A stretch of DNA of 64,000 bases from Ancylobacter moscoviensis (GTDB lineage Bacteria; Pseudomonadota; Alphaproteobacteria; Rhizobiales; Xanthobacteraceae), in NCBI RefSeq assembly GCF_007559435.1, contig NZ_VMBP01000005.1, positions 186,001 to 250,000 on the forward strand. Reading direction: 5' to 3'. A model generated the notes under the pieces. The model was not told where the DNA came from. It ran no database searches and saw only the letters and a list, made by a program, of their open reading frames with translations. How positions within the stretch are numbered: the first letter of the stretch is position 1; every line of letters begins with the position of its first letter. Below, piece by piece: positions 31,263 to 46,984 of the stretch. The position numbers were made by a program, and so were the translations under genes.

Positions 31263-32576
31263 ATGACGGACACGACGGCATCAACCGACACGCTCCCGGT
31301 GCCGGGCGATCTCGGGCGGGCGCCGCGTCCGTTCGTCATCGAAAGTCGCCATCCGGAAAGCGAGACGATCACCTCGTTCCGGCTGAGGCCCACGGATGGG
31401 AACCCGCCCTGGCCGCATGTCGCCGGCCAGCATATGACACTGTTCGCGGAGGTGCCGGGACAGGGGCTGCAGAAGCGCAACTACACGATCTCCTCCGCGC
31501 CCGACGGCCGAACCTACCGGATCTCGGTGAAGCGCGAGGCGCAGGGCACGGTCTCCCGCTGGCTCCATGACGAGGCCCGGCCCGGCGCGCCGGTGAGCGT
31601 CGCGCCGCCCGACGGCAGCTTCGTCCTGCCGGCGGACGATGCGCGCCCGGTCGTCATGCTCAGCGCCGGCGTCGGGCTTACGCCGATGGTGGCGATGCTG
31701 GAGGCGGCAGCGGCCGACCGGCGGGCGGGGGATCTGCTGTTCGTGCACGGCACGCGGGACGGGGCGACGCATGCCTTCGGTCCGCATGTGCGCGAGCTGG
31801 CGGCGGGGGGCGCCGGCATCCGCACGACCTTCTTCTATTCGCAGCCGCGCGCGGCTGATGTGGCGGGGCGCGACTTCGACGTCGCCGGCCATGTGAGCCT
31901 CGACTGGCTGGCCGGGCACACGCCGCTCGACACGGCGGAATATTTCGTCTGCGGCCCGCTGCGTTTCCTGCGCAGCTTCGTGCCCGGCCTCGTGCAGCGC
32001 GGCGTGCCGCCGGAGCGGGTGCATTACGAGTTCTTCGGCGATGTCGAGGACCTGTTCGGCGAGGCGACGTCGCAGCAGAGCCCGCCTGCTTCCGGCGCGG
32101 TAGTGGCGGCGCGCCGCTCGCAGGCCATCGGCGGGTTCGAGCGCGCGGCGATCGGCGCGGCGCTGCTCGACAGCGCCGCCGACGCGGTCGTCGCCAGCGA
32201 TGCCGAAGGCGCCATCGTGCTGTGGAACGCTGGCTCTGAGCGCATCTTCGGCTTCACCGAGGACGAAGCCCTCGGCCAGTCGCTCGACATCATCATTCCC
32301 GAGCCGTTTCGCGCGCGGCATTGGGAGGGCTATCGCGAGACGGTGGCTTCCGGCCAGAGCCGCTACGGCGCCGGCGACCTGCTCGCCGTGCCGGGCCTGC
32401 ACCGCGACGGCCGGCGCATCTCGATCGAGTTCACCATCGTGCTGCTGAAGGACGCGGCCGGGAAGGTGACAGGCATGGTCGCCTTGGTCCGCGATGTCAC
32501 CGCCCGGTTCGAGGAGACGAAGGCGCTGCGCAAGCGGGTCGCGGCGCTGGAGGAGCAAGCGGCGTCACCGGGCTGA
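31263..32576 (+). CDS. Globin-less flavohemoglobin-type reductase fused to PAS domain
   Basis: This 437-residue protein starts with the FAD/NAD(P)H reductase module of Hmp: RNYTISSAP (flavin), LSAGVGLTPMVAML (nucleotide) and YFVCGPLRFL, ending VHYEFFGDVEDLFGE. The globin domain that normally precedes this module is absent. Instead, a PAS domain follows at about residues 293-410 (ADAVVASDAEGAIVLWNAG...FGFTEDEALGQ), then a short coiled-coil-like tail. It is divergent from nsrR. A role as an NO- or redox-dependent electron donor or sensor is plausible but unproven. Confidence 0.85.
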   Translation: MTDTTASTDTLPVPGDLGRAPRPFVIESRHPESETITSFRLRPTDGNPPWPHVAGQHMTLFAEVPGQGLQKRNYTISSAPDGRTYRISVKREAQGTVSRWLHDEARPGAPVSVAPPDGSFVLPADDARPVVMLSAGVGLTPMVAMLEAAAADRRAGDLLFVHGTRDGATHAFGPHVRELAAGGAGIRTTFFYSQPRAADVAGRDFDVAGHVSLDWLAGHTPLDTAEYFVCGPLRFLRSFVPGLVQRGVPPERVHYEFFGDVEDLFGEATSQQSPPASGAVVAARRSQAIGGFERAAIGAALLDSAADAVVASDAEGAIVLWNAGSERIFGFTEDEALGQSLDIIIPEPFRARHWEGYRETVASGQSRYGAGDLLAVPGLHRDGRRISIEFTIVLLKDAAGKVTGMVALVRDVTARFEETKALRKRVAALEEQAASPG

Positions 32577-33062
32577 GGGGAGAGCGCGTGCCGCGAGGAT
32601 CGTGGCGAGCGCCCGCTCGACCGCTTCCTCTGTCTCGGGCGAGGCGGCGCGTGGACCCAGTACATGGCCGATCACCTCGTGCAGGGGCCGACCGGCCGGT
32701 AGCGCGCGGCGCTGCAGCCAGGCTTCGGCCAGCGCGAGCTGCAACTTCTCCGCGCTGAGTTCCACGGCCTTGACGGCCGAGCGGAGCTTTTCCTTTTCCG
32801 CGTCTCGACCGGGAAGAGGCGCGCGGAGATGGCGGCGCGCCGCGCGCAGCGGCAGCACGACGCCCTCCCGCCAGTCCTTCATTTCCTCCCGCAGCGCTTC
32901 CACGGCATTGCCGTCCAATGGTCGGCCGTGGATGTCGGCATAGATGGCCGTAAGGAGGAGGATGACATCGGCACCCGCCTCGTCCTGCAGGGTGAGACAC
33001 GCGGCCGAGACGCCGGGCCGGGCGTAGAAATCCAGCGCGAAATCCCAAAACGTGGTCATCAC
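32565..33062 (-). CDS. TIGR02444 family protein (unknown function)
   Basis: This 165-residue cytoplasmic protein is recognised from its start, FWDFALDFYARPGVSAACLTLQD, followed by GADVILLLTAIYADIHGR. The family has no known function. It is the last gene of an eight-gene minus-strand operon, overlapping the preceding oxidoreductase gene by four bases. Its own 3' end overlaps the convergent reductase-PAS gene by 12 bases. Being locked into this operon suggests a role with the dehydrogenase or decarboxylase encoded before it. Confidence 0.75.
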   Translation of the reverse strand: MMTTFWDFALDFYARPGVSAACLTLQDEAGADVILLLTAIYADIHGRPLDGNAVEALREEMKDWREGVVLPLRAARRHLRAPLPGRDAEKEKLRSAVKAVELSAEKLQLALAEAWLQRRALPAGRPLHEVIGHVLGPRAASPETEEAVERALATILAARALPSAR

Positions 33063-34537
33063 GAGGGCCTTTCCCTGTTGCGTTCGGCGTTCGGCGCGCC
33101 ATGATCGGCGAGCCCGGCCAGCTCGCCGACGGTGACGGGCTTAAGCGGGGTGCGCACGCGATAATAGCCGGTCTCTTCCGGCGACCGGTGCGTCGCTGCC
33201 GCGATGATGGCGGTGGCGGTCGGCCCGCAGAGCCGTCCCTGGCAGGGGCCCATGCCGCAGCGCAGGAACGCCTTGGCCTGATTGGGGCCGGTGACGCCGC
33301 GGCCGACGGCCTCGCGCAGGGCGCCGGCGGTCACGTTCTCGCACCGGCAGATGACGGTGTCGTCCGCCGGGGCGAGAATTTCCGCGCGGGGCGGATAGAG
33401 GCGGTCGAGGAAAGGGCGCACCGTGAGATGCGCGTGCCTGGCACGGGTCTCCGCGGCGATGCGCCGTTCCGCGGCCTCCGGCGCAAGTCGGCCGATATCC
33501 CGGAGGATCGCCAGCGCCGCGATGTTCCCGTCATGCGCGCTCGCCTGTGCGCCGATGATGCCGCCGGCATCTCCCGCGACATGGATGCCCGGAAGGTCCG
33601 TCGTTCCCGAAGCGCCGAGTACGGGCCGGAAGCTCCCCTGCGCCGGATTGAATTCATGGGCGCAGCCGAGGGAGCGGGTGATCTGCTGCTGGGGGATCAC
33701 CCCCTCATGCAGCCCCACCGTGTCGCATGCCAGCCGGGCCGCGCCGCCGCGATGGACGAAACGTATCGCGGTTACATGACGCTCGCCCTCCAGGGCAATG
33801 TCGCGTACGCCGCGATAGAAGGGGACGCCGGCACGGCGCAGGGCCGCCAGCAGGCCGGCGCCCTTGAGCAGATAGCGCCAGCCCTCGCCCGTCAGCGCCC
33901 GCGGCAGAAGCGGCAACCCGCCCAACAGATGCGTGCTGTCGGAGGTGTCGAGCAGCACCATGTCCCGGACACCCGCTGCGAGGCATTGCCGGGCGAAAAG
34001 CAGGAACAGCGGTCCGCTGCCGGCGAGGACGAGCCGGCCGGCCGGGACGAGGCCGCCGGATTTCAGCGCGATCTGCAGTGCGCCGATTCCCATCACCCCC
34101 GGCAATGTCCAGCCGGGCGTCGGCACCGGACGCTCCATGGCGCCGGTCGCGAGGACGACGGCTCGCGCGCTCACCCGTTCGATCGCGCCGTGCCGGCGGA
34201 TCCAGACGCCGCGCTCCTCGTCGATGCGCCAGACCAGCGTGCCGAGCGAGATCTCGGCGCCGCTAGCGCGCAGGCGCTCGGCGAGCGGGGCGCCGCGCAG
34301 GTAATCCGCACCCAGAATGCGCGCGAGCCGCGAATGGTTCCGGTTGCGCTCGATGGCGCGGTAGATCTGGCCACCGATCTCCGGCTGCTCGTCGACGACC
34401 AGCGTGCGGGCCCCGCCCTCGGCGAGCGCCGCGGCCGCGGCCATGCCGGCCGGGCCGGTGCCGATGACGACAGCGTCCCAGTCGTGGGACGTCCGGTCGG
34501 CGGCTATGTGATCGGTATCCATGCGGTCAGCGGTCAT
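33059..34537 (-). CDS. FAD oxidoreductase with BFD-like [2Fe-2S] domain (HcnB/OoxA type)
   Basis: This 492-residue subunit has an N-terminal FAD fold (VVIGTGPAGMAAAAAL) and a second nucleotide fold (LVLAGSGPLFLLFA). A C-terminal BFD-like cluster domain has cysteines in CRCENVT and GMGPCQGRLC. This layout matches the alpha subunit of HcnABC, opine oxidase and multimeric proline/sarcosine dehydrogenases. It overlaps the small ferredoxin-like gene by 11 bases and the TIGR02444 gene by four. The three adjoining genes make a complete heterotrimeric amino-acid-type dehydrogenase that should pass electrons to the respiratory chain. Confidence 0.85.
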   Translation of the reverse strand: MTADRMDTDHIAADRTSHDWDAVVIGTGPAGMAAAAALAEGGARTLVVDEQPEIGGQIYRAIERNRNHSRLARILGADYLRGAPLAERLRASGAEISLGTLVWRIDEERGVWIRRHGAIERVSARAVVLATGAMERPVPTPGWTLPGVMGIGALQIALKSGGLVPAGRLVLAGSGPLFLLFARQCLAAGVRDMVLLDTSDSTHLLGGLPLLPRALTGEGWRYLLKGAGLLAALRRAGVPFYRGVRDIALEGERHVTAIRFVHRGGAARLACDTVGLHEGVIPQQQITRSLGCAHEFNPAQGSFRPVLGASGTTDLPGIHVAGDAGGIIGAQASAHDGNIAALAILRDIGRLAPEAAERRIAAETRARHAHLTVRPFLDRLYPPRAEILAPADDTVICRCENVTAGALREAVGRGVTGPNQAKAFLRCGMGPCQGRLCGPTATAIIAAATHRSPEETGYYRVRTPLKPVTVGELAGLADHGAPNAERNRERPS

Positions 34538-34835
34538 GGCCGCGCTCCGGAATCTGCCGCGCGCCCGTCTGGACGTGCACCACCATGCCGTCGCGCGCCG
34601 GAATGAGGCAGGCCTGCTGGTTCTGGCGTCCGTCGATCTCGACCAGGCATTCGAAGCAGACGCCCATCATGCAGTAGGGCGCGCGCGGCGCGGCATCGCG
34701 CGGGTGATCGCGGAAGCGCTCCACCCCTGCCGCGATGAGCGCCGTGGCGACGCTGTCCCCTGCCTGGAAGGCGATCGATCGGCCGTCGAACACCAGCGTG
34801 CCGGCTGCCGGTGCCGGTTCAATGCGCCTGAACAT
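34527..34835 (-). CDS. Small [2Fe-2S] subunit (HcnA/OoxA-N type)
   Basis: This 102-residue ferredoxin-like protein has the cluster motif APYCMMGVCFECLVEIDG followed by QQACL, giving four candidate cysteines (C-x4-C-x2-C...C). Such small subunits bring the [2Fe-2S] cluster to HcnABC- and SoxA-like dehydrogenases. It lies between the FAD subunit genes, overlapping both, which fixes it as part of the same enzyme. Confidence 0.87.
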   Translation of the reverse strand: MFRRIEPAPAAGTLVFDGRSIAFQAGDSVATALIAAGVERFRDHPRDAAPRAPYCMMGVCFECLVEIDGRQNQQACLIPARDGMVVHVQTGARQIPERGHDR

Positions 34836-35934
34836 CGAATCTGTCGCTCCGGAAACAGGCCACGGCGTCAGGCAGCGTGCCGGTGGCGATGGCCGGGCCG
34901 AGCACGAAGGCGTGCGCGCTGCACAGGGTAACCCCGCTGTGGCAGGTGGCGGCGAAAGCGCCGGGATGGCGCTGCGATTCCTCGTAGATCGGCTTGCCGT
35001 CCGGCGTCATCACGCGCAGCGAACCCCACTGCCGGACGACGTTCACGTCGGCGATCTGCGGAAAGGCCCGCACCGCCGCGGCGCACAGCGTCGCGGCGGT
35101 GGTCACGTCGGTTTCCTCGCTGAAGCCGGCTTCCTCATGGCTGGAACCGATGAGGAAGGAGCCTTCCGCCGTTTGCCGCACGCCGCTGCCGACATAGGAA
35201 AAGAAGGGCTTCACCCGCTCGGTGACGATGATCTGGCCGCGCTCCGGCCGCACCGGCATGGAGAGCCCGAGCTGGGGGGCGAGGGCCGCCGCGCCGAGGC
35301 CGGCGGCGATGACGATCCGTCGGCCCCGGACGACGCCGCGTGCCGTGTCGGCCGCGAAGCCGCCGGGCTCGGCGCGCAGGGCGGAGACCCGGGCGGTGGG
35401 GAAATAGGTGCCTCCGCGTGTCTGAAGTCCCTGCTGGAGTGCACGCAGCAGGTAGAGCGGACTCACATGCGAATCCAGCAGGGAATAGGAGGCGCCGACC
35501 ACCTGCGGACCGATCGCGGGGACGCGCTCGAGAAGTGCCGCCCGGTCGAGAATCTCGATCTCGATGTCGCCGCCATCGGCGCGTGTCGCGGCGGCGACGC
35601 GGCGCCGGGCGTCGAGTTCGGTTTCCGAGAAGCAGAATTGCAGGCCGCCCGGCTGGCTCCAGCCGATGTCGATGCCGGTTTCGTCGACCAGCGCTTGCGC
35701 GAAATCCCGCCACAGATGCCCGGCCCGCAGGGACCAGTGCATGTAGGCGGGCGCGCCGACGCCCTTTCCCTGCAGCCAGACGAGGCCGAAATTGCCGCGC
35801 GCGGCGCGATGGGCGACGTCGCCCTCGTCGAGCAACGCGACATCGGCACCCGTGCGCGCCGCCCCCCAGGCGATGGCGGAACCGATCAGCCCGCCGCCGA
35901 CCACGATCAGGTCGTGCTGCCGGCCGGTGGTCAT
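34819..35934 (-). CDS. DAO-family FAD amine/amino-acid dehydrogenase (HcnC/OoxB type)
   Basis: This 371-residue flavoprotein of the D-amino-acid oxidase/glycine oxidase fold has the GxGxxG motif VVGGGLIGSAIAW near the N-terminus and the C-terminal DAO block RVMTPDGKPIYEE...HSGVTLCSA. It is expected to be the catalytic subunit that oxidises the C-N bond. The start at 35934 (MTTGRQHDL) is preferred; the longer frame overlaps the racemase gene. It overlaps the next gene by 17 bases and the racemase gene by four. Confidence 0.87.
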   Translation of the reverse strand: MTTGRQHDLIVVGGGLIGSAIAWGAARTGADVALLDEGDVAHRAARGNFGLVWLQGKGVGAPAYMHWSLRAGHLWRDFAQALVDETGIDIGWSQPGGLQFCFSETELDARRRVAAATRADGGDIEIEILDRAALLERVPAIGPQVVGASYSLLDSHVSPLYLLRALQQGLQTRGGTYFPTARVSALRAEPGGFAADTARGVVRGRRIVIAAGLGAAALAPQLGLSMPVRPERGQIIVTERVKPFFSYVGSGVRQTAEGSFLIGSSHEEAGFSEETDVTTAATLCAAAVRAFPQIADVNVVRQWGSLRVMTPDGKPIYEESQRHPGAFAATCHSGVTLCSAHAFVLGPAIATGTLPDAVACFRSDRFDVQAH

Positions 35935-36674
35935 CTCTCTGCGCCGGGCCCGAACCGCCGGGGCCGCAACCCGGCGTGCAGCCAGTCCACCAGCGAGACG
36001 ATGTCGTAGACCGGCAGGCCGAACGTCTCGCGTATGGCGGCCGAGAAGGGAGGAAGATTGGCGCATTCGGAGACGATGGCGCCGATGGACGGCGTCTCCT
36101 CCAGCATGCGCGCGACGATATCCAGCACCTCGCGCTCCTGCGCGGCGGCGTCGGCGCGCGGCGCATTGGTGCGCATATGGGTGCGGATCGGCCCGTCGAA
36201 CGCCAGCTCGCCGAGCGGCAGCCCGGTCGGAGCGCCCACATTGAGGAAATGGGTGTCCTTGAGGGCTGCCTTGTCGGAGACGATGACGCCGACCGTGCGG
36301 TCCTCCGGCAGGAGGCTCAGGGCGAGCGGGATCTGCATCAGGCTGGAGGTCGCGATCGGCACCGGACTGTGCCGCCTCAGCTCCGGATGCACGGCGGCGA
36401 GGAAGCCGCAGCTTGTGGTGATGCCGTCGACGCCGGTCGCCACCAGATCGTCGATCGCCTCGAAGAAGCGGGCCAGCGCCTCCGCCGGGTTGCCTTCGAT
36501 GACATCCTGCGGGCGCACGCCGCGCACCACGCGGAACTGAACGGGAAACGGCCAGGTTGCTGCGTTGGCGATGTCGCCGGGCAGCCGCTCGAAGCGGGTG
36601 TCGAGCACCATGATGCCGATCATGGTGCCGTGGACTGGCCGGGGCCGGCGCGGCGTGAGAAGACTGCGGGGCAT
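35931..36674 (-). CDS. Aspartate/glutamate racemase family protein
   Basis: This 247-residue protein of the Asp/Glu racemase, hydantoin racemase and maleate isomerase superfamily has the two catalytic cysteines expected of a two-base racemase, in TTSCGFLA and VSECANLPP. The leader before MIGIMVLDTRFERLPGD fits this subfamily, and TAGGAGC precedes the first ATG, so the longer start is kept. Set before an amino-acid-type dehydrogenase operon, it may supply the enantiomer that enzyme accepts. Confidence 0.82.
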   Translation of the reverse strand: MPRSLLTPRRPRPVHGTMIGIMVLDTRFERLPGDIANAATWPFPVQFRVVRGVRPQDVIEGNPAEALARFFEAIDDLVATGVDGITTSCGFLAAVHPELRRHSPVPIATSSLMQIPLALSLLPEDRTVGVIVSDKAALKDTHFLNVGAPTGLPLGELAFDGPIRTHMRTNAPRADAAAQEREVLDIVARMLEETPSIGAIVSECANLPPFSAAIRETFGLPVYDIVSLVDWLHAGLRPRRFGPGAER

Positions 36675-36686: not shown

Positions 36687-37289
36687 CTACGCGTCGGCCC
36701 GGCGCGCCGCGGGCATGCCGGCCCAGCGCCGGCAGGCGTCGTTGTCGATGTCGAACAGATCGAGCGCCCGGCCCACCGAATGGTCGACCATTTCCGCCAC
36801 CGAGCCCGGAAGGGCATAGAAGGCGGGCACGGGCGGCATGATGATCGCGCCCATCTCGGTGAGTGCGGTCATGGTGCGCAAATGGCCGAGGTGAAGCGGC
36901 GTCTCGCGCACCATGAGCACCAGCCGGCGGCGCTCCTTCAGCACCACGTCGGCGGCCCGGCTCATCAGGCTGGACGTTACGCCGGTGGCGATCTCCGACA
37001 TGGTGCGGATCGAGCAGGGTGCGACCAGCATGCCGAGGGTGCGGAACGAGCCGCTGGAGATCGTCGCCCCGACATCGGCGACGTTGTGGACGACGCTCGC
37101 CTTCCGCGCCAGCGCGGCCGGCGAGAGGCCCAGCTCCTGCGAGAGGGTGAGATGGGCGGAGCGGGTGACGATGAGATGCGTCTCGATGCCCGCCGCTTCC
37201 AGCAGTTCCAGCGCCCGCACGCCGTAGACGGCGCCGGAGGCGCCGCTGATGCCGACGACGATGCGGGGTCTTTCCTGCGTGCCGCTCAT
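36687..37289 (-). CDS. UbiX-type flavin prenyltransferase
   Basis: This 200-residue flavoprotein of the UbiX/Pad1 family makes prenylated FMN for UbiD decarboxylases. The FMN-binding start VVGISGASGAVYG, the CSIRTMSEIATG block and the catalytic-region VLMVRETPLHLGHLRTM are all present. The start is set at 37289 (MSGTQERPRI); the frame upstream is antisense-like noise inside the UbiD gene. It is 14 bases after the UbiD gene, a dedicated cofactor supplier for it. Confidence 0.92.
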   Translation of the reverse strand: MSGTQERPRIVVGISGASGAVYGVRALELLEAAGIETHLIVTRSAHLTLSQELGLSPAALARKASVVHNVADVGATISSGSFRTLGMLVAPCSIRTMSEIATGVTSSLMSRAADVVLKERRRLVLMVRETPLHLGHLRTMTALTEMGAIIMPPVPAFYALPGSVAEMVDHSVGRALDLFDIDNDACRRWAGMPAARRADA

Positions 37290-37303: not shown

Positions 37304-38623
37304 TCAGGCGTTCGCGAACCAGTCGGCGAGGTTCACCGTGTCGGCGAGCCGGATCTTCTTGCGCTCGAACTCGGCGCGCCGGTGGAACGGCTTGGTGGCG
37401 TCGATCAGCAGCCGGCCCCAGTGGTCCTTCTGCTCGTCGCGATAGAAGGACGGGGTATCGGGAATGATGATCATGTCCTTGTCCGGCCGGCAGCGCGTCA
37501 GCACGGCCCACATCACGTCGTCCATGCTGTAGATATCGACGTCCTCGTCGACGACGGTGATCACCTTGGCCCAGATCGGCTCGGCGCCGATGGTCGCCAG
37601 CATGACCTGCCGCGCATGCCCCTCGAACTGCGGGTCGATCTTGACGATGGCGTGGGTGACGAAGGGCTGGCACGTCACATCGAGAATGCCGGGCAGCGCG
37701 GCGCTCAGGCGCTGGTAGATGTTGGCCGAGACCGACAGCTCCAGCGTCAGCACCTCTTCCGCCGAACCGCACAGGATGGAGTGGAACACCGCGTCCTTGC
37801 GTACGGTGACGCCCAGCACCTCGAAGACTGCGTTTGGTCCCTCGGGCACGTAGTAGCCCATGAACTCGCCGAACGGGCCTTCCGGGCGGCGTTCGTTGGG
37901 CAGGAAGCGGCCCTCGATGACGATCTCGGTATCGGCCGGGACCTCGAGGTCGATATGTCTGCACTTACGCATGGCGATCGGGCTGCCCTTCAGCCGCGCG
38001 GCGACCTCCAGCTCGTCGACGTCGTAGGGCAGGGGGGCGGCGGCCGTGAGGAAGGAGGTCGCCGGCGCGCCGATCAGCATCGCCGCTTCCAGCGGCTTGC
38101 CCATCTTCTCCGCCTTCTCGTGGTAGATGGTGAGGTGATGGCGCGGGGCGAGGCGGCAGCGCAGCTCCTGATCGTTGACATACATCGAGCGGTGATAGGA
38201 CAGGTTGCCGACCCCGGTTTCGGGATCCTTGGCGATGAACATCGCCGAGGTGAAATAGGGCGCGGCGTCGCGGTCGGAATAGGTGATCAGCGGGAGGTCG
38301 GAGAGCTTCACCTCGATGAGACCATCATCCTCGGCGTGGACGAAGGGCTCGCCCGAGCCCTGGCCGAGATTGGCGAGGTTGCTCCACTGGCGGCAGAAAT
38401 CCTTCGCGTCGATGCCGATCACTTCCGCGAGGCGTTCGCGCGAACCGTAGACATTGGTGACGACCGGAAAGCGGGTGCCCTTCACATTGGTGAACAGGAT
38501 GGGCTTGCCCCAGCGCTTCTGCGCGGCGTGGGTGACGGCGGCGAGCTCGTGAAAGGGGTCGATCTCCTTGTCGACCACGAGCAGGTCGCCGCGCTCGCGC
38601 AGGCGCGCAATATAGTCCCTCAT
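37304..38623 (-). CDS. UbiD-family prFMN-dependent decarboxylase
   Basis: This 439-residue member of the UbiD family reversibly (de)carboxylates aromatic or unsaturated acids using prenyl-FMN. The catalytic Glu-Arg-Glu set can be placed: Arg in SYHRSMY and the two Glu in RPEGPFGEFMGYY. It is a little shorter than typical UbiD (about 490). Its partner UbiX follows, and the GntR/UTRA regulator gene overlaps its start by four bases. A catabolic rather than ubiquinone role is inferred from the operon. The substrate is unknown. Confidence 0.9.
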   Translation of the reverse strand: MRDYIARLRERGDLLVVDKEIDPFHELAAVTHAAQKRWGKPILFTNVKGTRFPVVTNVYGSRERLAEVIGIDAKDFCRQWSNLANLGQGSGEPFVHAEDDGLIEVKLSDLPLITYSDRDAAPYFTSAMFIAKDPETGVGNLSYHRSMYVNDQELRCRLAPRHHLTIYHEKAEKMGKPLEAAMLIGAPATSFLTAAAPLPYDVDELEVAARLKGSPIAMRKCRHIDLEVPADTEIVIEGRFLPNERRPEGPFGEFMGYYVPEGPNAVFEVLGVTVRKDAVFHSILCGSAEEVLTLELSVSANIYQRLSAALPGILDVTCQPFVTHAIVKIDPQFEGHARQVMLATIGAEPIWAKVITVVDEDVDIYSMDDVMWAVLTRCRPDKDMIIIPDTPSFYRDEQKDHWGRLLIDATKPFHRRAEFERKKIRLADTVNLADWFANA

Positions 38624-39408
38624 CGAATTCTCCGGGGAGGCAGGTTCATTGTGGCCGGGCCGGCGGACAGGGGCCGCGCGGTGGCCGTGGTGGCTTCATG
38701 GGAACTGCGCAGGCGATAGCGGTCCCCCGGATAGAGGAACCGGCTGCGCGTCACCGGGACGTCGCCGCGCCAGGTGCGGCGGTCGAGCAGCAGGCAGGGC
38801 TGGTTGGCGTCGATCTGCAGGAGCGCCCGGCTTTCCTCGTCGGGCCGGATGGCGCGGATCGTGTTGTCGACGAAGGTGACCTCGGTCTCGCGCAGCAGAT
38901 AGGTGTGCGGCGTGATGCGGGTGAAGTCCTGATCCAGATAGGCCGGCGCTTCCTCCGAATTGATGAAGCGGTCCTCGAGCTGGATCGGCGTCCCGTCTTC
39001 CTTGTGCAGGATGCGCGAGTGGAAGACCACGCCGTCATTGGGCAGCGGCAGCAGGTTGGAGAGCGGGTCGCCGGGCCGCAGCGTGAGAAGTGATATCACT
39101 TCGCTCGTATGGACGCCGCCGCCGTCCTCGATCTCCTCGGATACGTCCGGAAGCTCGAAGACCGCGCACTGCATCTTGGGGCCGATGACGAAGGTGCCAC
39201 GTCCCTGGATGCGCACCAGCATCCCCTCGGTCTGCAGCTCGCGCAAGGCGCGGCGTACCGTGAGGCGCGAGGCGCCGAATTCCTCGGCGAGCTCTTCCTC
39301 CCGCGGGACCTGGAAGTCCGCCGGCCATTCGGCGGCGCGGATGCGCTTTTCGATCGCGGATTTGATCCGGCCGTAGAGGGGCTGATCGACGGGGGCGACC
39401 TCGTTCAT
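38620..39408 (-). CDS. GntR-family regulator with UTRA domain
   Basis: This 262-residue HutC-subfamily regulator has its winged HTH at about residues 15-75 (REEELAEEFGASRLTVRRALREL) and then a UTRA ligand domain (chorismate-lyase fold) ending RTWRGDVPVTRSRFLYPGDRYRLRS. The start is placed at MNEVAPVDQPLYG; upstream ATGs lie in the operator region. It is the first gene of the left arm and overlaps the UbiD gene, so it represses its own operon. GATATC-centred palindromes at 39.43-39.56 kb and one inside this gene are its likely sites. Confidence 0.88.
   Translation of the reverse strand: MNEVAPVDQPLYGRIKSAIEKRIRAAEWPADFQVPREEELAEEFGASRLTVRRALRELQTEGMLVRIQGRGTFVIGPKMQCAVFELPDVSEEIEDGGGVHTSEVISLLTLRPGDPLSNLLPLPNDGVVFHSRILHKEDGTPIQLEDRFINSEEAPAYLDQDFTRITPHTYLLRETEVTFVDNTIRAIRPDEESRALLQIDANQPCLLLDRRTWRGDVPVTRSRFLYPGDRYRLRSSHEATTATARPLSAGPATMNLPPRRIR
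39087..39102. promoter_or_regulatory. Intragenic GATATC palindrome
   Basis: GAAGTGATATCACTTC, a perfect 16-base palindrome, lies inside the GntR/UTRA gene about 310 bases from its start. It shares the GATATC core with three intergenic sites, so it may be a roadblock or auxiliary operator. Confidence 0.5.
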
Positions 39409-39430
39409 GGGCTCTCTTTGCGGCATGAAA

Positions 39431-39526: not shown

Positions 39527-39560
39527 AATGATATCAGTTTCGATCAAAGAGATATCATTA
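39527..39560. promoter_or_regulatory. Paired GATATC operators for the right arm
   Basis: AATGATATCAGT (39527-39538) and GAGATATCATTA (39549-39560) have their GATATC cores exactly 21 bases apart, two helical turns. They lie about 100 bases before the aldehyde dehydrogenase gene. This suits cooperative binding of a GntR dimer pair. Confidence 0.65.
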
Positions 39561-39658
39561 TGGGTCTCAATCAATAGTGTTTTGTTGCCCGCGCATCCGT
39601 TGCGGCGGGAGTGCCTGCGCCGTCGTGTGGCGGCGGTAGTGTCATGGGAGAGGTGTGA

Positions 39659-41155
39659 ATGACATCGCGCACGGACGCGCTGCCGAAGCTCGACATGTAT
39701 ATCGGCGGCGAGTGGGTCGCGCCGGCTTCGGGCGAGTATTTCGAGACGATCGATCCGTTCACGGCCAAGCCGTGGGCGCTCGTCGCCCGCGGTGACGCCT
39801 CCGATGCCGACCGTGCCGTCCGCGCCGCCCACAAGGCCTTCACCGAAGGCCCGTGGCGACGGATGCACCCTTCCAAGCGCGGTCGGATCATCCATCGCTT
39901 CGGCGAACTCATCGAACAGCACGCCGACGAACTCGCCGAGATCGAGGTGCGCGACAATGGCCGCCTCCTCGCCGAGATGCGCCACCAGATCCGCTACATC
40001 CCGAACTGGTACTATTATTACGCCGGTCTCGCCGACAAGATCGAAGGCGCCGTGCACCCCTGCGACAAGCCGGCCCTCAGCTTCTCTCGGCACGAGCCGC
40101 TCGGCGTGTGCGTGGGCATCGTGCCGTGGAACGCGCCGCTGTTCCTGCTCTCGCTGAAGCTTCCGGCCGCGCTGGCGGCCGGCAACACCGTGGTGCTGAA
40201 GCCCGCCGAGCACACCTCCGCCACCGCGCTGAAGCTGATGGAGCTGGTCGAGAAGGCGGGCTTCCCTCCCGGCGTGATCAACGTCGTGACCGGCTATGGC
40301 AAGGAGGTGGGCGAGCCGCTCGTCACCCACCCGCTCACCCGCCATGTCGGCTTCACCGGCTCGACGGCCACCGGCGCGCATCTCTATTCGCTGGCAGCGA
40401 AGGACGTGAAGCGCGTCAGCCTGGAGCTGGGCGGCAAGTCGCCGAACATCGTCTTCGACGACGCGGACCTCGACAATGCCGTGCGCGGCGTGGTCGGCGG
40501 CATCTTCGGCGCGGTGGGCCAGACCTGCATCGCCGGCTCCCGCCTGCTGGTCCAGCGCAAGGTGCACGACGCCTTCGTCGAGAAGCTCGCCGCCTTCAGC
40601 AAGTCGGCCCGCATCGGCGACCCGCGCAACGCCGCCACGCAGATCGGCCCGATCGCCAATCGCATGCAGTACGACAAGGTGCTCGGCTATATCGACATCG
40701 CGCGGCAGGAGGGTGCCGAGCTGGTGCTCGGCGGCAAGCGGCCGGACGAGGCGGAATGCGCCGAGGGCTTCTTCGTCGAGCCGACCATCTTCACCGGCGT
40801 GAACAACGACATGCGGATCGCCCGCGAGGAGGTGTTCGGCCCGGTGCTCTCCACCATCGTCTTCGACGAGATGGAGGAGGCGGTCGCCATCGCCAACGAC
40901 ACCGAGTTCGGCCTCGCCGCTGGCCTCTGGACCGCCAATATGCGGCGGGCGCTACGCATGTCCGAGCTGCTGGAGGCTGGCAGCGTGTGGGTGAACACCT
41001 ATCGCGACGTGTCCTACACAACCCCGTTCGGCGGCTACAAGAAGAGTGGCATTGGCCGCGAGAACGGCGTCGAGGGCATCCGCGAATATCTGCAGACCAA
41101 GGCGGTCTGGCTCTCCACCGCCGAAGAGATCGCCAATCCCTTCGTCATCGGCTGA
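39659..41155 (+). CDS. NAD-dependent aldehyde dehydrogenase
   Basis: This 498-residue ALDH-superfamily enzyme has Glu256 in LELGGKSPN and nucleophile Cys290 in GQTCIAGSRL. VPWNAPLFL and GFTGSTATG line the cofactor pocket. It resembles the benzaldehyde/phenylacetaldehyde and hydroxymuconic-semialdehyde group, but the substrate is not settled. It is the first gene of the right arm and is followed 67 bases on by a thiamine-diphosphate enzyme that may supply its aldehyde. Confidence 0.9.
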   Translation: MTSRTDALPKLDMYIGGEWVAPASGEYFETIDPFTAKPWALVARGDASDADRAVRAAHKAFTEGPWRRMHPSKRGRIIHRFGELIEQHADELAEIEVRDNGRLLAEMRHQIRYIPNWYYYYAGLADKIEGAVHPCDKPALSFSRHEPLGVCVGIVPWNAPLFLLSLKLPAALAAGNTVVLKPAEHTSATALKLMELVEKAGFPPGVINVVTGYGKEVGEPLVTHPLTRHVGFTGSTATGAHLYSLAAKDVKRVSLELGGKSPNIVFDDADLDNAVRGVVGGIFGAVGQTCIAGSRLLVQRKVHDAFVEKLAAFSKSARIGDPRNAATQIGPIANRMQYDKVLGYIDIARQEGAELVLGGKRPDEAECAEGFFVEPTIFTGVNNDMRIAREEVFGPVLSTIVFDEMEEAVAIANDTEFGLAAGLWTANMRRALRMSELLEAGSVWVNTYRDVSYTTPFGGYKKSGIGRENGVEGIREYLQTKAVWLSTAEEIANPFVIG

Positions 41156-41222: not shown

Positions 41223-42911
41223 GTGAAGCGCAAGGGCAGTGAGATTCTCGCCGACGAACTGGCCCTCAACGGCACGGATATCGTCTATCACGTGCCGGGG
41301 GAGAGCTTCCTGTGTGCGCTCGACGCGCTGGCGGTGCGCCATCCCGGCATCCGCGCCGTCGGCTGCCGCCACGAGAACGGTGCCGCGCAGATGGCGGAGG
41401 CCTACGGCAAGCTCACCGGCCGGCCGGGCGTCGCCTTCGTCACCCGCAGCCCGGGTGCCACCAATGCTGTGAACGGCGTCCACACCGCCTATCAGGATTC
41501 CTCGCCGATGATCCTCATCGTCGGCCAGGTGAAGCGCGCTCTGATGGAGCGCGAGGCGTTCATGTCCTACGACTTCCGCACCATGTTCGCCCCGACGGCG
41601 AAATGGGTGGCGCAGATCGACGATGCCGCCCGCATCCCGGAATTCGTCCAGCGCGCCTATCAGACGGCGATGACCGGCCGCATGGGCCCGGTCGTGCTCG
41701 TCGTGCCCGAGGACGTGCTGGAGGAGGAGGCGAGCGTGCCCTCCGGCAAGCGCTCCGTGCCCGCCCACGCCGGCACGCCCGCGGCGGAGGATGTCGAGAC
41801 CATCTTCTCCCTGCTGGCGCAGGCCGAGCGTCCGTTGCTCATCGTCGGCGGCTCCGGCTGGACGGAAGCGGCGCGCGGCGACATCCAGGCCTTCGCGGCG
41901 GCGAGCAACGTGCCCGTCGTTACCACCTTCCGCCGGCGCGACATCATCGACCACCGGCTGCCCTGCTATGTCGGCGAGATCGGCATCGGCTCCAACCCGG
42001 CGCTGCTCGCCCACATCAGGGACGCCGACTTCGTCATCATGTGCAACGACGCGCTCAGCGACGTTAACACGATCGGCGCCGGCTACATGGAGGGCTTCAC
42101 GCTTTTCAGCATCCCGGTGCCGAAACAGAAATTCGTGCATGTCACCAATAATTTCGCCGAGCTGAACCGCGTCTTCCAGGTCGATCTCGCCTTGCTCGCC
42201 GACAACGGCGCCTTCTGCCGGGCGCTCGCCGCCCATGCGCCGGTCGCGCATGCCGCCCGCGACGGCTGGACGGCGAAGCTGCGCGAGACCTTCGAGGCCG
42301 AGACCCGTCCCGGCCCGTGCCCCGGCTCGATCGACCTGCCGCAGGTGATGAAATGGCTGCGCGAGCGTCTGCCGGAGGACGCCATCGTCACCAATGGCGT
42401 CGGCGCCTATGCAACGTGGAGCCAGCGCTACTTTGCCCATTACCGGCTGCACACCCAGCTCGGGCCGATCAGCGGCTCGATGGGCTACAGCCTGCCGGCG
42501 GCGATCTCGGCCAAGCTTGTCCATCCCGAGCGCGTGGTGGTCGATTTCGTCGGCGACGGATGCTTCCAGATGAGCTCAGAGGAGCTGATCACCGCCGTGC
42601 AGTACGGCGCGAACGTGATCGTCGTCCTGTTCAACAACAACATGTACGGCACCATCCGCATCCATGAGGAAAACCGCCTCGAGGGGCGGGTCAACGGCAC
42701 CCAGCTGGTCAATCCCGATTTCTACGCGCTGGCCAAGGCCTATGGCGCCCATGCCGAGCGCGTGACCACCACCGAGGAGTTCGCTCCGGCCTTCGAGCGC
42801 GCGCTCGCTGCCGGACGGCCGGCGCTGATCGAGCTCACCGTCGATCAGGAGGCCATCCACTCCCGCTATTCGCTGACCGACCTGCGCAATCGCCGCAAGG
42901 CGAAGGGCTGA
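41223..42911 (+). CDS. Thiamine-diphosphate-dependent enzyme (ALS/benzoylformate decarboxylase-like)
   Basis: This 562-residue ThDP enzyme has the three usual domains. The cofactor-activating Glu is in RHENGAAQMAEAYG, the central domain follows, and the ThDP/Mg motif is GDG at about residue 443 (DFVGDGCFQMSSEEL) with NN further on. It starts with GTG, preceded by GAAGGACAGG. The family covers acetolactate synthase, 2-oxoacid decarboxylases and sulfoacetaldehyde acetyltransferase. Beside an aldehyde dehydrogenase, a 2-oxoacid decarboxylase making an aldehyde is the most economical reading. Confidence 0.85.
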   Translation: MKRKGSEILADELALNGTDIVYHVPGESFLCALDALAVRHPGIRAVGCRHENGAAQMAEAYGKLTGRPGVAFVTRSPGATNAVNGVHTAYQDSSPMILIVGQVKRALMEREAFMSYDFRTMFAPTAKWVAQIDDAARIPEFVQRAYQTAMTGRMGPVVLVVPEDVLEEEASVPSGKRSVPAHAGTPAAEDVETIFSLLAQAERPLLIVGGSGWTEAARGDIQAFAAASNVPVVTTFRRRDIIDHRLPCYVGEIGIGSNPALLAHIRDADFVIMCNDALSDVNTIGAGYMEGFTLFSIPVPKQKFVHVTNNFAELNRVFQVDLALLADNGAFCRALAAHAPVAHAARDGWTAKLRETFEAETRPGPCPGSIDLPQVMKWLRERLPEDAIVTNGVGAYATWSQRYFAHYRLHTQLGPISGSMGYSLPAAISAKLVHPERVVVDFVGDGCFQMSSEELITAVQYGANVIVVLFNNNMYGTIRIHEENRLEGRVNGTQLVNPDFYALAKAYGAHAERVTTTEEFAPAFERALAAGRPALIELTVDQEAIHSRYSLTDLRNRRKAKG

Positions 42912-43037: not shown

Positions 43038-44063
43038 ATGAAAACGTCAGTGCCAGCGTTGCTCCTTGCCGGAGCGCTCCTCGCCTTCGCCGCACCGGTG
43101 CGGGCGGAAGACTGCACGCTCCGCGTCACCACATGGGGCGGTAACTACCAGAAAACCTACGAGGCGGTCGCCAAGGGCTTCGAGGAAGCCCACAAGTGCA
43201 AGATCGAATGGGTGGTCGGCTCCAGCCCCGATCACCTGATCAAGTCCCGTCTGGGGCAGGTCGACGTGACGACCAACACCCTGCTCAATTCGATCGCCGG
43301 GGAGAAGGAAGGCCTGTGGCTCGAGCTCGACAAGAGCAAGATCCCGAACATGGCCAATCTCTATCCCAATGCCGTTTATTCGCCCTACACGATCTTCGCC
43401 AATGTCGGCGACTACGTGCTCGCCTACAATTCCGACAAGGTGAAGACCCCACCGACGAGCTGGGACGAGCTCTGGAAGCCGGAATACAAGAACCATGTCG
43501 TCATCTACGGCATGCAGCACATCCCCACGCTCAGCCTGACGGTGCTGGAAGCCAACAAGAACGGCGGCAGCATCGAGAATATCGAGCCCGGGCTGAAGAA
43601 GATGGCGGAGCTGTTCAACAGCGGCAATCTGATCGGCGCGCTCGATGTCGAGAGCCAGATGGTTTCGCTCTTCCAGACCGAGGATGCCTGGATCGGCATT
43701 CTCGCGACCGGCCGCATGAAGGACCTGCTCGACAAGGGCGCCACGAACATCGCCTTCGTCCGGCCGGAGGAGGGTACCTTTCCGCTGATCAGCAGCGTGA
43801 ACGTGCCGAAGACCGCCAAGGACCCGGCGATGGCCTTCGCCTTCGTGAACTACATTCTCAGCCCCGAGGTGCAGCAGGCCTTCGCCACCCGCAACCTCTA
43901 CGCACCCACCGTGCAGAACGCGAAGATCCCCGAGGACTTCGCCTACAAGAACCTGCTGGTGCAGAACGAGCAGTTCAAGCGCCTCTTCCTCCCCGATCAG
44001 GACAAGATCACCGCCAACAAGGCGAAGTGGCAGGAAGAGCTGAGCAAGCTGACCACCAAGTGA
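43038..44063 (+). CDS. ABC solute-binding protein, polyamine type
   Basis: This 341-residue periplasmic protein has a classic Sec signal peptide (ALLLAGALLAFAAPVRA/ED) and the PotD/PotF-like fold (RVTTWGGNYQKTYEAVAKGF). AAAGGGGAACG precedes the ATG. It heads the ABC part of the right arm and probably binds the substrate whose breakdown the neighbouring enzymes perform. A hairpin after the gene may favour high binding-protein expression. Confidence 0.88.
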   Translation: MKTSVPALLLAGALLAFAAPVRAEDCTLRVTTWGGNYQKTYEAVAKGFEEAHKCKIEWVVGSSPDHLIKSRLGQVDVTTNTLLNSIAGEKEGLWLELDKSKIPNMANLYPNAVYSPYTIFANVGDYVLAYNSDKVKTPPTSWDELWKPEYKNHVVIYGMQHIPTLSLTVLEANKNGGSIENIEPGLKKMAELFNSGNLIGALDVESQMVSLFQTEDAWIGILATGRMKDLLDKGATNIAFVRPEEGTFPLISSVNVPKTAKDPAMAFAFVNYILSPEVQQAFATRNLYAPTVQNAKIPEDFAYKNLLVQNEQFKRLFLPDQDKITANKAKWQEELSKLTTK

Positions 44064-44074
44064 CGCGAGGAATG

Positions 44075-44217: not shown

Positions 44218-45318
44218 ATGAACGATTCCACCGGCAAAGCCATTCAGGTCGAGGGGGTCTGCAAGCGATATGGCCACGTATCGGCCGTGAACGACGTGTC
44301 GTTCGATGTCCGTCATGGCGAGTTCGTCTCGCTGCTCGGCCCCAGCGGCTGCGGCAAGACCACCACGCTGCGCATGATCGCCGGCTTCGTGATGGCCTCG
44401 GACGGGCACATCCGCATCAACGGCCGCGACGTCACCTATCTGCCGCCGGAGAAGCGCGAGGTCGGCTTCGTCTTCCAGAACTACGCGCTGTGGCCGCATA
44501 TGACGGTGGCGGAGAACGTCGCCTTCGGGCTGAAGCTGCGCAAGCGCGACAAGGCTTTCATCCGCAACAAGGTGGAGGAATCGCTCGCCGTCACCGGGCT
44601 TTCCGGCTTCGAGGGGCGCCTGCCGCGCCAGCTTTCCGGCGGCCAGCAGCAGCGCGTGGCGCTTGCCCGGGCGCTGGCGCTGGAGCCGCAACTGCTGTTG
44701 ATGGACGAGCCGCTGAGCAATCTCGATCGCGCCCTGCGCGTGGCGATGCGCCGGGAGCTGAAGAAGCTGCAGCAGCGGCTGAACATGACCACCCTCTACG
44801 TCACCCACGATCAGGAGGAAGCCCTGTCCATGTCGGACCGGGTGGTGATCATGAGTGGCGGCGAGATCGTTCGCGTGGCCCGGCCGCTGGAGGTCTATGA
44901 GGACCCGCAGTCGGAATTCGTCGCCGATTTCGTCGGCACCACGAATTTCTTCGACGGCATCGTCAGCGACATCGGCGAAGGCGTGGCCACGGTGAAGGTG
45001 GGCGAGACGCTGACGCTGCGCGTCGGCAACCGCATATCCGCCGCTCCCGGCAGCGCGGTGCGCGTGCTGCTGCGGCCCGAGCGGGTACGCATCCTCGCCG
45101 AGCGCCGGGAGGGGGCGAACATGCTCGCGGCGCGGGTCGATTTCATCGAATATTACGGCCCGACCCTGCGCTACACCGTGGCGCTTCCCGGCGGCGAGGC
45201 GCTCTTCGTCGAGGCCCACGACATCCATGGCTCGGCGCAGATCGGCGAGACCGTGTGGCTGAGCATCGAGCCGGATCATTTCCGGCTGATCGACCGCAAG
45301 GGGGCGCCGGCGTCATGA
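44218..45318 (+). CDS. ABC transporter ATPase, PotA-like
   Basis: This 366-residue importer ATPase has Walker A GPSGCGKTTTL, signature [14 protein letters not shown] and Walker B LLLMDEPLSNLDR, then VTHDQEEA and a TOBE domain with LLRPERVRI. The start at 44218 is the ATG giving the standard N-terminus; the open frame upstream spans the hairpin region. It overlaps the first permease by four bases. Confidence 0.9.
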   Translation: MNDSTGKAIQVEGVCKRYGHVSAVNDVSFDVRHGEFVSLLGPSGCGKTTTLRMIAGFVMASDGHIRINGRDVTYLPPEKREVGFVFQNYALWPHMTVAENVAFGLKLRKRDKAFIRNKVEESLAVTGLSGFEGRLPRQLSGGQQQRVALARALALEPQLLLMDEPLSNLDRALRVAMRRELKKLQQRLNMTTLYVTHDQEEALSMSDRVVIMSGGEIVRVARPLEVYEDPQSEFVADFVGTTNFFDGIVSDIGEGVATVKVGETLTLRVGNRISAAPGSAVRVLLRPERVRILAERREGANMLAARVDFIEYYGPTLRYTVALPGGEALFVEAHDIHGSAQIGETVWLSIEPDHFRLIDRKGAPAS

Positions 45319-46178
45319 AGGCACGCAACGCCGCCCTGCTGCTGGCGCCGGCCGCTCTCGCGCTGACGATCTTTGTCATCCTTCCCCTGATGTGGGTGGT
45401 GCGCACCAGCTTCAACCACACGGTGGACGGCGCCTACATGGTGTCGGCCTTCACCTTCGAGAACTACACGCGATTCCTCGGTTCCGGCTGGTACCTCGTC
45501 AACACGCTCTGGTTCTCGATCCGTGTGGCGATCCTCACGACGGCGATCTCTGTGCTCCTCGGCTACCCGGTGGCGCTCTACATCGCCGGTACGCGCGGCG
45601 TGCAGCGCAACGTGCTGATGACCATGGTGCTCTCGCCGCTGCTGATCGGTCTCGTGACGCTGGTCTATGGCTGGATCGTCATCTTCCGCGGTGGCGGCCT
45701 GCTGAATTCCCTCATGATCGCGCTGCGCGTCTATGACGAGCCGGTGCGCTACATGTGGGACCTGAAGGGCGTCGTCATCCTGCTCGTCTACATCGGCATG
45801 CCCTATATCGTGCTGTCGCTGCTCGACAGCATCGAGCGCATCAACCCCTCCTTCGTGGAGGCGGCGCGCAATGTCGGGGCGAGCCGCTGGCGGGCCTTCT
45901 GGAGCATCACCTTCCCGCTCACCATGCCCGGGCTCTATGCCGGGCTGGTGATCGTCTTCACGCTGAACTTCTCCGCCTTCGCCGTGCCGCTGATGGTCGG
46001 AGCGACCGACACGCAGATGATCGGCCTCGTGATCTACCGCGAGGCCCTGCTCAACAACGACCTGCCCTTCGCCTCCAGCCTCTCGGTGATCATGATCGCC
46101 GCCAACGCGACCATTCTCCTCGGCATGTCCTTCCTCTTCGGGAAGCTCATCCTCAACCGTCTCGAAGCGAAGAGATGA
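45315..46178 (+). CDS. ABC permease (PotB-like)
   Basis: This 287-residue inner-membrane permease has about six membrane segments and the EAA loop [21 protein letters not shown]. It overlaps the ATPase gene (ATGA) and the next permease by four bases. It is part of the right-arm importer. Confidence 0.9.
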   Translation: MKARNAALLLAPAALALTIFVILPLMWVVRTSFNHTVDGAYMVSAFTFENYTRFLGSGWYLVNTLWFSIRVAILTTAISVLLGYPVALYIAGTRGVQRNVLMTMVLSPLLIGLVTLVYGWIVIFRGGGLLNSLMIALRVYDEPVRYMWDLKGVVILLVYIGMPYIVLSLLDSIERINPSFVEAARNVGASRWRAFWSITFPLTMPGLYAGLVIVFTLNFSAFAVPLMVGATDTQMIGLVIYREALLNNDLPFASSLSVIMIAANATILLGMSFLFGKLILNRLEAKR

Positions 46179-46984
46179 GGACGCCCGTCATGCGCTCCCC
46201 CGATATCGGCACCGCCGCCCTGCGCCTGTTCACCTATGCGGCGATGGCGTTCCTCTTCTTCCCCATCATCATCACGTTGATCGTCTCGGTGAACCCGCGC
46301 GAGTTCATCCTGCCGCCATCGGGCTTCACGCTCGACTGGTTCAAGGCCGCCTGGACGTCGGAGACCTTCGTGCGGGCGATGGGGGTGAGCCTCATCCTTG
46401 GCATCGTCGCCTCGCTCGTCGCCAACACGCTGGCGCTGCTCGCGGTGCTGGCGATGGTGCGCTACGACTTCAAGGGCAAGGCGCTGATCAACCTGCTGAT
46501 CATGTCGCCGCTGCTGATTCCGACCACCATCTTCAGCCTGGCGCTCTACGTCTATTTCGTGCAGCTCGGCTTCGGCGGCGGCATTCCGGCGCTGGTCATC
46601 GGCCATGCCATCCACGTGCTGCCCTTCGCGGCCCGCATCCTCACCGCCAGCATGCAGAACTTCGACACGTCGCTGGAGGAGGCCGCCCGCAATGTCGGCG
46701 CCGGCCCGGTGCGCACGATGCTCTCGATCACCCTACCGGTGATGAAGACCGGCCTCATCTCCAGTTTCGTGCTGTGCTTTGTGCTCTCGTGGAACGACTT
46801 CCCGATCTCGGTCTTCCTTGCCCCGCCGGGCTGGACGCCGCTGCCGGTCGAGCTCTTCACCTACATCAAGTTCCAGTACGACGCCGTGGGCGCGGCGCTG
46901 GCGAGCTCGCTGATCCTGATCTCCGGCATCGCGATGGTGGTGATCGACCGCATGGCCGGGCTGCGGCGGGTGCTGAGGGGCTGA
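46175..46984 (+). CDS. ABC permease (PotC-like)
   Basis: This 269-residue second permease has about six membrane segments and the EAA loop [21 protein letters not shown]. The ATG at 46175 overlaps the preceding stop; a second ATG five codons on is possible. It ends the right arm and is convergent with hutF. Confidence 0.9.

Follow-up and report, generated by a model that had tools for sequence, protein, structure and literature searches.

The 64,000-nucleotide window analysed here (Ancylobacter moscoviensis, RefSeq assembly GCF_007559435.1, contig NZ_VMBP01000005.1, positions 186,001 to 250,000) carries a divergent catabolic cluster in which a UbiD-family decarboxylase and the flavin prenyltransferase UbiX stand together with an HcnABC-like dehydrogenase, a racemase-family protein, a thiamine diphosphate (ThDP) enzyme, an aldehyde dehydrogenase (ALDH), an ATP-binding cassette (ABC) importer and a HutC-like repressor. 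We propose, with a probability of roughly 45%, that this cluster acts as a feeder for the histidine utilisation (hut) enzymes, cutting back a substituted heteroaromatic amino compound with a ring N-H (most likely a histidine-type imidazole) and passing on the product. As judged by sequence comparison between genomes, the gene set, a shared operator, the coupling of the ThDP enzyme to the HcnABC-like dehydrogenase, a core of ALDH and UbiD, and a linkage to hut are established.

A scan of named genomes for the UbiD protein returned 79 loci, 50 with a UbiD of at least 60% identity (the close group) and 29 with 49-54% (the distant group). The close-group loci show three arrangements that have the UbiD in common, and UbiX was detected in 41 of them. 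Type A (15 loci), to which the window belongs, combines the racemase with a DAO-type dehydrogenase and has the ThDP enzyme and ALDH in 13 loci within the fetched stretch. In type B (20 loci) the DAO oxidase is a different one; ALDH accompanies it in 17 loci, an SBP_bac_3 importer in 16 and RidA in 8; for the three type B loci without ALDH in the fetched stretch an ortholog is present elsewhere in the genome. Type C (8 loci) has an NMT1-type importer, and in five loci (L047, L050, L051, L082 and L087) such an importer and UbiD occur with no oxidase. Mixed forms are A with B (L048, L052), A with C (L049, L098) and B with C (L077). None of the 29 distant loci shows a type A, B or C arrangement at the thresholds used. 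The sequence-only reading had proposed to look for conserved synteny of the UbiD, UbiX, racemase and HcnABC-like genes, and would have given way if the HcnABC-like and UbiD/UbiX parts were found only separately in relatives. In fact racemase and DAO enzyme accompany UbiD in 15 of the 79 named loci (14 of these also with UbiX detected) and in the type A genomes G050 and G097, so that the grouping, judged from gene neighbourhoods, is more than chance.

The distribution of the other enzymes bears on the order of the steps. An ortholog of the ThDP enzyme (at least 70% identity) is present in 14 of 14 type A genomes and in none of 21 others (35 genomes, L094 not included), where the best match reaches at most 52% identity. 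L048 and L052 have their ALDH and ThDP genes beyond the fetched stretch, approximately 10-11.5 kb from UbiD on its contig. The ALDH has an ortholog in 8 of the 10 genomes tested, both genomes without it being type C only, and is 81-96% identical in the seven type A or B genomes measured; at the C-only loci neither ALDH nor oxidase is seen within the fetched stretch. The simplest reading would be that type A reaches an aldehyde through a 2-oxoacid and the ThDP enzyme while type B reaches the same aldehyde directly, that the ALDH turns it into an acid in both, that type C imports the acid, and that UbiD would decarboxylate it in all three. Because the ThDP enzyme is tied to type A whereas ALDH, UbiD and UbiX are mostly kept in type B, the pattern fits an order from aldehyde to acid to UbiD. 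The comparison thereby lends support to the order put forward in the sequence-only reading (racemisation, oxidation, ThDP enzyme, ALDH, UbiD).

The active site of UbiD gives a first indication of the ring. The own genome has no second match to the UbiD family, and the UbiD_N, rift and UbiD_C domains of the protein are all above cut-off (PF20695, PF01977, PF20696). The nearest solved sequence is 6h6v, which we take to be HmfF (E 4e-71, aligned over nearly the whole length), followed by AnInD; the substrates of these enzymes are a furan dicarboxylate and an indole acid, respectively. Residues were compared in an alignment of 80 rows, from which two were dropped for length, leaving 49 close-group and 29 distant-group rows. 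In the close group R145 is found in 49/49 rows, E248 in 48/49 (one Asp) and E253 in 49/49; by alignment we take these to be the ERE triad of UbiD. Glu290 is likewise present in 49/49 rows, and in 29/29 rows of the distant group the position is Asp. In the window UbiD this Glu takes the place of the specificity His of HmfF (H297 in PMC7976604, equated with position 296 of chain 6h6v), the equivalence being drawn by sequence alignment alone, and the furan-type feature of HmfF is lacking. PMC7976604 reports that Asn318 of HudA bonds the ring nitrogen, that the HudA variant N318D still fully decarboxylates pyrrole-2-carboxylate, that wild-type HudA weakly converts imidazole-4-carboxylate into imidazole (1.3% under the conditions tested), and that the equivalent residue of HmfF is a His important for furan substrates. 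An acidic residue at position 290 would suit an N-H ring acid, for example of imidazole or pyrrole. Furan acids are disfavoured by the exchange of His for an invariant Glu, and furoate, a candidate of the sequence-only reading, thereby loses ground. A role in ubiquinone biosynthesis was rejected (NF008175, 174 bits against a cut-off of 788); the patchy occurrence of the UbiD ortholog, at 95% identity or more in just 3 of 30 genomes of the genus, also counts against it. As side observations, the UbiD of G050 (L192 6029-8639) is split into two pieces about 1.3 kb apart, and the copy in L081 has in-frame stops.

A second indication comes from the neighbouring genes. In the window hutF begins 76 bases past the last permease gene of the cluster and is followed by hutI, hutH, hutG, hutU and hutD; the sequence-only reading had missed this link, as well as the HutC-like nature of the regulator. 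We examined the linkage in 39 genomes (those of 36 of the 50 close-group named loci, two further genomes and the own genome). In 12 of them, from about ten genera, hutU lies within 20 kb of UbiD: the own genome, G097, L058, L059, L062, L064, L065, L066, L069, L084, L089 and L094, with hutU in fragments at contig edges in L065 and L089. The placement varies, since hut lies past the permease end in the window and G097 and past the other operon in L058, L062 and L069. Among more distant relatives, single hut genes are found near UbiD: hutF in L070 and L072, hutI in L091 and hutG in L106. In L082 (1871-9400) and L092 (67-4168) the neighbours of UbiD are a divergent urocanase and an M20 deacylase of the ArgE/DapE type that does not reach the cut-off of the ArgE/DapE model. 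These urocanases are 52-56% identical to the window hutU and form a tree branch of their own, with a long-branch warning; their scores exceed the cut-off of the ordinary hutU model but not those of the thiourocanate and S-methylthiourocanate hydratase models, the L092 copy being cut by the contig end. In L137 5713-13107 (G303:C9:725000-744900, Nitratireductor arenosus, the type A genome that also holds L075) a UbiD/UbiX pair directly follows a thiourocanate hydratase (1006 bits, cut-off 930) in an ergothioneine cluster with ErtD (773 bits, above cut-off); this UbiD is only distantly related (34% identity), and the fetched stretch has no HutH-like match. Together these cases indicate that UbiD has been paired with urocanase-type enzymes at least twice.

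Some further genes around these loci should be mentioned in their own right. Between hutD and hutC the window has an NtaA/DmoA-type flavin mononucleotide (FMN) monooxygenase (54371-55768, 512 bits, cut-off 280) and, by eye, an amino-acid-type ABC importer (~55886-59190). An HpaB-type flavin monooxygenase lies near UbiD in L088 (by Pfam) and in L099, L103, L108 and L111 (by similarity), some of these loci having a hydantoinase A/B-like pair by eye; these would be other fates of a UbiD product. The own genome has a second urocanase on contig C6 (846 bits), which is a weak candidate for the next enzyme: it sits in a separate operon that is also carried by G261, where no UbiD match was found at E<=1e-15. 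It is present in 3/3 UbiD genomes and 1/27 others of the genus (p = 0.001; this and the p-value given below assume independent genomes and are descriptive only), a distribution that could be explained by shared ancestry of the four species. Around it (C6:11167-25380; L140, L141) we noted by eye MmgE/PrpD, CaiB, an acyl-CoA dehydrogenase, an agmatinase-type hydrolase and a peptide-type ABC importer.

The control region between the two operons holds three operator copies, AATGATATC / GATATCATT, at 39433-39441, 39527-39535 and 39551-39559, the conserved operator centring on AATGATATCATT. Comparing the 22 equivalent regions between ALDH and GntR that passed our filter (the window and 21 of the 79 loci), we found the 8-mer AATGATAT in either orientation in 18, against only 3-5 regions for the commonest 8-mer in 20 shuffled control runs. 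The sites are retained in type A and type B regions alike, which supports a single regulon. A 14-base pattern allowing up to two mismatches is matched in the own genome only within the cluster and at one TAAAGATATCTTTA site; the reversed control pattern has no match there and 0-2 per strand in 11 other genomes. The TAAAGATATCTTTA site itself recurs in further genomes. The cluster regulator is one of two proteins genome-wide above the HutC cut-off, and is 32% identical to the HutC of the hut locus.

Turning to the remaining enzymes, two cysteines of the racemase-family protein, Cys72 and Cys187 if counting starts at the inner ATG, are conserved in 46/46 rows. A sequence search against PDB gave no solved relative, but with its predicted model (predicted local distance difference test, pLDDT, of 94) the 50 Foldseek matches listed, at E-values from 5e-8 to 1e-5, are mostly arylmalonate decarboxylase and racemases, among them those for hydantoin, aspartate and glutamate. 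Modelled fold and the two catalytic-type cysteines place it in the Asp/Glu racemase superfamily. The HcnABC-like trio (DAO, FAD/BFD and [2Fe-2S] proteins) lies in one operon of the window, and all three parts were detected in 13 of the 15 type A loci, the set being incomplete by detection in L054 and L058. The ALDH stays under the cut-off of all the best 25 of 43 NCBIfam models, and the ThDP enzyme reaches 254 bits with the 5-guanidino-2-oxopentanoate decarboxylase model (cut-off 500). For the TIGR02444 gene, the distance to UbiX is at most 500 bases in 15 of 30 loci of the main set. When stretches of about 3.3 kb around TIGR02444 were taken from other genomes (among L143-L172, the best-scoring loci of 77 matching genomes among 240), 10 of these 29 loci contained UbiX. 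The predicted model of the TIGR02444 protein is confident and all-helical and gives no functional hint, with no match to PDB folds at E<=0.001. A role as helper of enzymes that use prenylated FMN (prFMN) is possible.

From these data we infer the reactions, their order and the identity of the ring as follows. Under a single regulon controlled by the HutC-like GntR repressor, the ABC importer would take up the substrate, and the racemase and HcnABC-like dehydrogenase would convert a ring-attached -CH(N)-COOH group into a 2-oxoacid. The ThDP enzyme would decarboxylate this to a ring-CHO aldehyde, the ALDH would yield the ring carboxylate, and UbiD with prFMN supplied through UbiX would strip off the carboxylate to leave the bare ring. 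What remains, be it histidine, urocanate or another imidazole, might then be degraded by hut enzymes, encoded either alongside or at another place of the genome. It is the HutC-family regulator, the adjoining hut operon and the neighbours in several relatives that point to an imidazole, histidine-type compound.

A number of observations weigh against this proposal. No abundant natural compound of such a ring-glycine shape is known to us. In 27 of the 39 genomes, a chosen subset of mostly Alphaproteobacteria in which the 12 linked cases are not independent, there is no hutU within 20 kb of UbiD. The frequency of hutU speaks for a link, with a match in 36 of the 37 distinct genomes searched that carry the cluster (35 of them above cut-off, and G266 and G311 counted as one) against 60 of 240 genomes drawn from the class, but this contrast is overstated given the small genomes in the class baseline; within the genus the figures are 3/3 UbiD genomes against 16/27 others, which is not significant (p = 0.24). 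As the urocanases of L082 and L092 pass the cut-off of the ordinary hutU model, they may simply be normal urocanases. L048 and L052 carry both oxidases, and L054 and G050 mix parts, so that types A and B are not exclusive and need not have different substrates. Because the hut stretch of the window is without an exact operator half-site (the sole one-mismatch match, at 54488, is inside a gene), cluster and hut operon are probably not co-regulated through this operator. Finally, PMC12772324 reports that binding by Pseudomonas aeruginosa HutC is weakened by phenazine-1-carboxylate and not by 10 mM histidine; a HutC relative thus need not sense imidazoles, and the kinship alone leaves the inducer unfixed.

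Several other explanations have to be considered. The sequence-only reading had named an aryl- or heteroaryl-glycine-like substrate; the heteroaryl part stands, with an N-H ring favoured, but the claim was too wide. Kept at that breadth, any such compound (pyrrole, indole or hydroxyphenyl) would pass through the same steps and hut would be merely a frequent neighbour in catabolic islands. The step order supported by the comparison, HmfF and AnInD as nearest solved relatives of UbiD, and the 27 genomes with no nearby hutU agree with this. Nonetheless we consider it unlikely, given the HutC-family regulator, the presence of hut close by in about ten genera in which the gene order varies, the single hut genes or urocanases beside distant UbiD copies, and the invariant Glu in place of the HmfF His. 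The cluster might instead hold two units of separate function, one an operon for the oxidation of opines or D-amino acids and the other a UbiD/UbiX decarboxylase of ring acids, which are under one repressor and have no common substrate. In L191 (7918-11420, genome G106) a racemase-DAO-[2Fe-2S]-HcnB-like module of 43-50% identity indeed occurs with no UbiD or ThDP gene in the 20 kb fetched, which also counts against our proposal and suggests that the racemase-HcnABC module is common to more than one pathway; the five loci with UbiD, NMT1 importer and no oxidase point the same way. The operator shared by both sides, the strict coupling of the ThDP enzyme, and an ALDH that accompanies either oxidase type and is absent from both importer-only genomes tested make such a division improbable.

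Two explanations stay closer to histidine itself. As an overflow route, histidine would be converted by the HcnABC-like enzyme into imidazolepyruvate, by the ThDP enzyme into imidazoleacetaldehyde and by the ALDH into imidazoleacetate, with histamine entering through the type B oxidase and UbiD either unrelated or acting, without precedent, on imidazoleacetate. This would provide a natural amino acid and amine pair for types A and B, and agrees with the hut linkage, with a HisC-family aminotransferase near UbiD in L106 (295 bits, cut-off 277) and with the type B SBP_bac_3 protein, whose best NCBIfam match is a Lys/Arg/Orn model (under cut-off). However, the substrates of UbiD enzymes are acrylic, aromatic and heteroaromatic acids according to PMC8379154, and imidazoleacetate does not belong to any of these classes in the required sense; no imidazoleacetate hydroxylase was noticed among the cluster genes, although no search was aimed at one; and a hutU match is already present in 36 of the 37 cluster genomes searched. 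We give this route little credence. A long shot of a different kind is that the cluster recovers histidine from carbon adducts at the imidazole ring, spinacine in type B and a glyoxylate-type adduct in type A. Spinacine is the cyclic adduct of histidine and formaldehyde and forms in cultured human cells given methylamine (PMC9814826). In type B the DAO enzyme would open the ring through an imine, aided by RidA, to give 5-formylhistidine, which the ALDH would turn into 5-carboxyhistidine and UbiD into histidine for hut. In type A the glyoxylate-type adduct would take the same course, and its additional carboxyl would account for the racemase, the HcnABC-like enzyme and the ThDP decarboxylase. 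To our knowledge this, if true, would be the first salvage of aldehyde-damaged histidine and a new job for prFMN.

All 14 genes were located at the expected coordinates (Table 1) in the source genome of 4.18 Mb in 13 contigs; Ancylobacter mangrovi and 'Bosea sp. 117' are the named relatives with the closest UbiD (95-96% identity). The compact layout described in the sequence-only reading was confirmed: the eight minus-strand genes are spaced by -4, -11, -17, -4, 12, 14 and -4 bases (racemase start taken at 36674), within its limit of overlaps or gaps under 15 bases. The coordinates and families of the six plus-strand genes, starting from the same control region of exactly 250 bases between GntR and ALDH, were confirmed as well, with larger gaps of 67, 126, 154, -4 and -4 bases. 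An alternative inner ATG of the racemase at 36623 would leave a 63-base gap instead; the residues RPVHG between the two candidate starts recur in L048, L053 and L054. Elsewhere in the window (30730-32576), the gene of an Rrf2-type regulator (NsrR/RirA-like, under those cut-offs) diverges from one whose product carries a flavohemoprotein-type reductase domain followed by a PAS domain at the C-terminus, and the AT skew of positions 12001-16000 (-0.154) deviates from the remaining window.

Table 1. Genes and control region of the cluster and of the adjoining hut locus, in window coordinates, with profile scores in bits
Feature	Coordinates	Strand	Evidence
TIGR02444/DUF2390 protein	32565-33062	-	TIGR02444 100 (cut-off 48); PF09523; function unassigned
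HcnB/SoxA-like flavin adenine dinucleotide (FAD) subunit with BFD-like [2Fe-2S] domain	33059-34537	-	Pyr_redox_2, Fer2_BFD, SO_alpha_A3
Small [2Fe-2S] subunit (Fer2_4)	34527-34835	-	PF13510 94.5
DAO-family flavoprotein subunit, glycine/sarcosine-oxidase-like	34819-35934	-	PF01266 195; best PDB match glycine oxidase
Asp/Glu-racemase-superfamily protein	35931-36674	-	NF005679 284 (cut-off 231)
UbiX flavin prenyltransferase	36687-37289	-	TIGR00421 224 (cut-off 109); NF004685 257 (cut-off 188)
UbiD-family prFMN decarboxylase, HmfF-like	37304-38623	-	TIGR00148 317 (cut-off 245)
GntR/UTRA repressor, HutC-like	38620-39408	-	TIGR02018 (HutC) 262 (cut-off 220)
Divergent control region with operator copies	39409-39658	.	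250 bases
Aldehyde dehydrogenase	39659-41155	+	PF00171 600
ThDP enzyme, PRK08199 group	41223-42911	+	NF006052 795 (cut-off 539); 2-oxoacid decarboxylase role inferred
PotD/SfuA-like solute-binding protein	43038-44063	+	scores under named cut-offs
ABC ATPase, PotA/PhnT2-like	44218-45318	+	
ABC permease, PotB-like	45315-46178	+	
ABC permease, PotC-like	46175-46984	+	
hutF	47061-48413	-	TIGR02022
hutI	~48525-49712	+	above cut-off
hutH	49709-51244	+	above cut-off
hutG	51241-52068	+	above cut-off
hutU	~52080-53759	+	TIGR01228 962
hutD	53772-54347	+	PF05962
hutC of the hut locus	59281-60027	-	TIGR02018 297 (cut-off 220)

UbiX makes prFMN, and UbiD/prFMN chemistry is known from phenolic, acrylic and a few heteroaromatic acids. 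If our proposal is true, this chemistry extends to histidine-type metabolism, and substrates are suggested both for the group of UbiD proteins with an acidic residue that is found in many Alphaproteobacteria and for groups of racemases, ThDP enzymes and aldehyde dehydrogenases that have no assigned functions. With the three cluster types, the order of the steps can be tested directly by removing genes, and the recurrent pairing of TIGR02444 with UbiX might reveal a helper protein of prFMN enzymes. Among the listings covered of open-licence PMC papers we found no description of this gene set and no paper on TIGR02444. The match for UbiD with urocanate was unrelated by title, as were the matches listed for UbiD with HutC, a term that also matches surnames.

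Compared to known systems, the cluster combines familiar parts in a different way. HcnABC, opine oxidase and hydroxyproline dehydrogenase represent a known heterotrimer type with the same DAO, FAD plus BFD and small [2Fe-2S] subunits in one operon; unlike these, the window dehydrogenase is coupled to a racemase, a ThDP enzyme and UbiD. The 2-oxoacid route of arginine, in which 5-guanidino-2-oxopentanoate decarboxylase is followed by an aldehyde dehydrogenase, has the same logic from amino acid to 2-oxoacid, aldehyde and acid, whereas the window cluster would use another ThDP subgroup (NF006052) and adds UbiD and UbiX. With the hut operon, its neighbour and proposed product acceptor, the cluster has a HutC-family repressor in common, but its enzymes match no hut enzyme model in profile searches. 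Ergothioneine utilisation (thiourocanate hydratase, thiohydantoin desulfurase, ErtD and ErtE) is also a feeder for a histidine derivative with a relative of urocanase, and one such cluster, that of L137, carries UbiD and UbiX; as the pathway of the window cluster it was rejected, no Ert model being among the best NCBIfam matches listed for its proteins. HmfF (2,5-furandicarboxylate decarboxylase) and HudA/PA0254 (pyrrole-2-carboxylate decarboxylase) are prFMN decarboxylases of five-ring heteroaromatic acids, as the window UbiD would be, which keeps the catalytic Arg-Glu-Glu positions and has a UbiX gene alongside. Where HmfF has His and HudA has Asn, however, the window UbiD has Glu (Asp in the distant group), and unlike both enzymes it is tied to an upstream oxidation chain and to hut.

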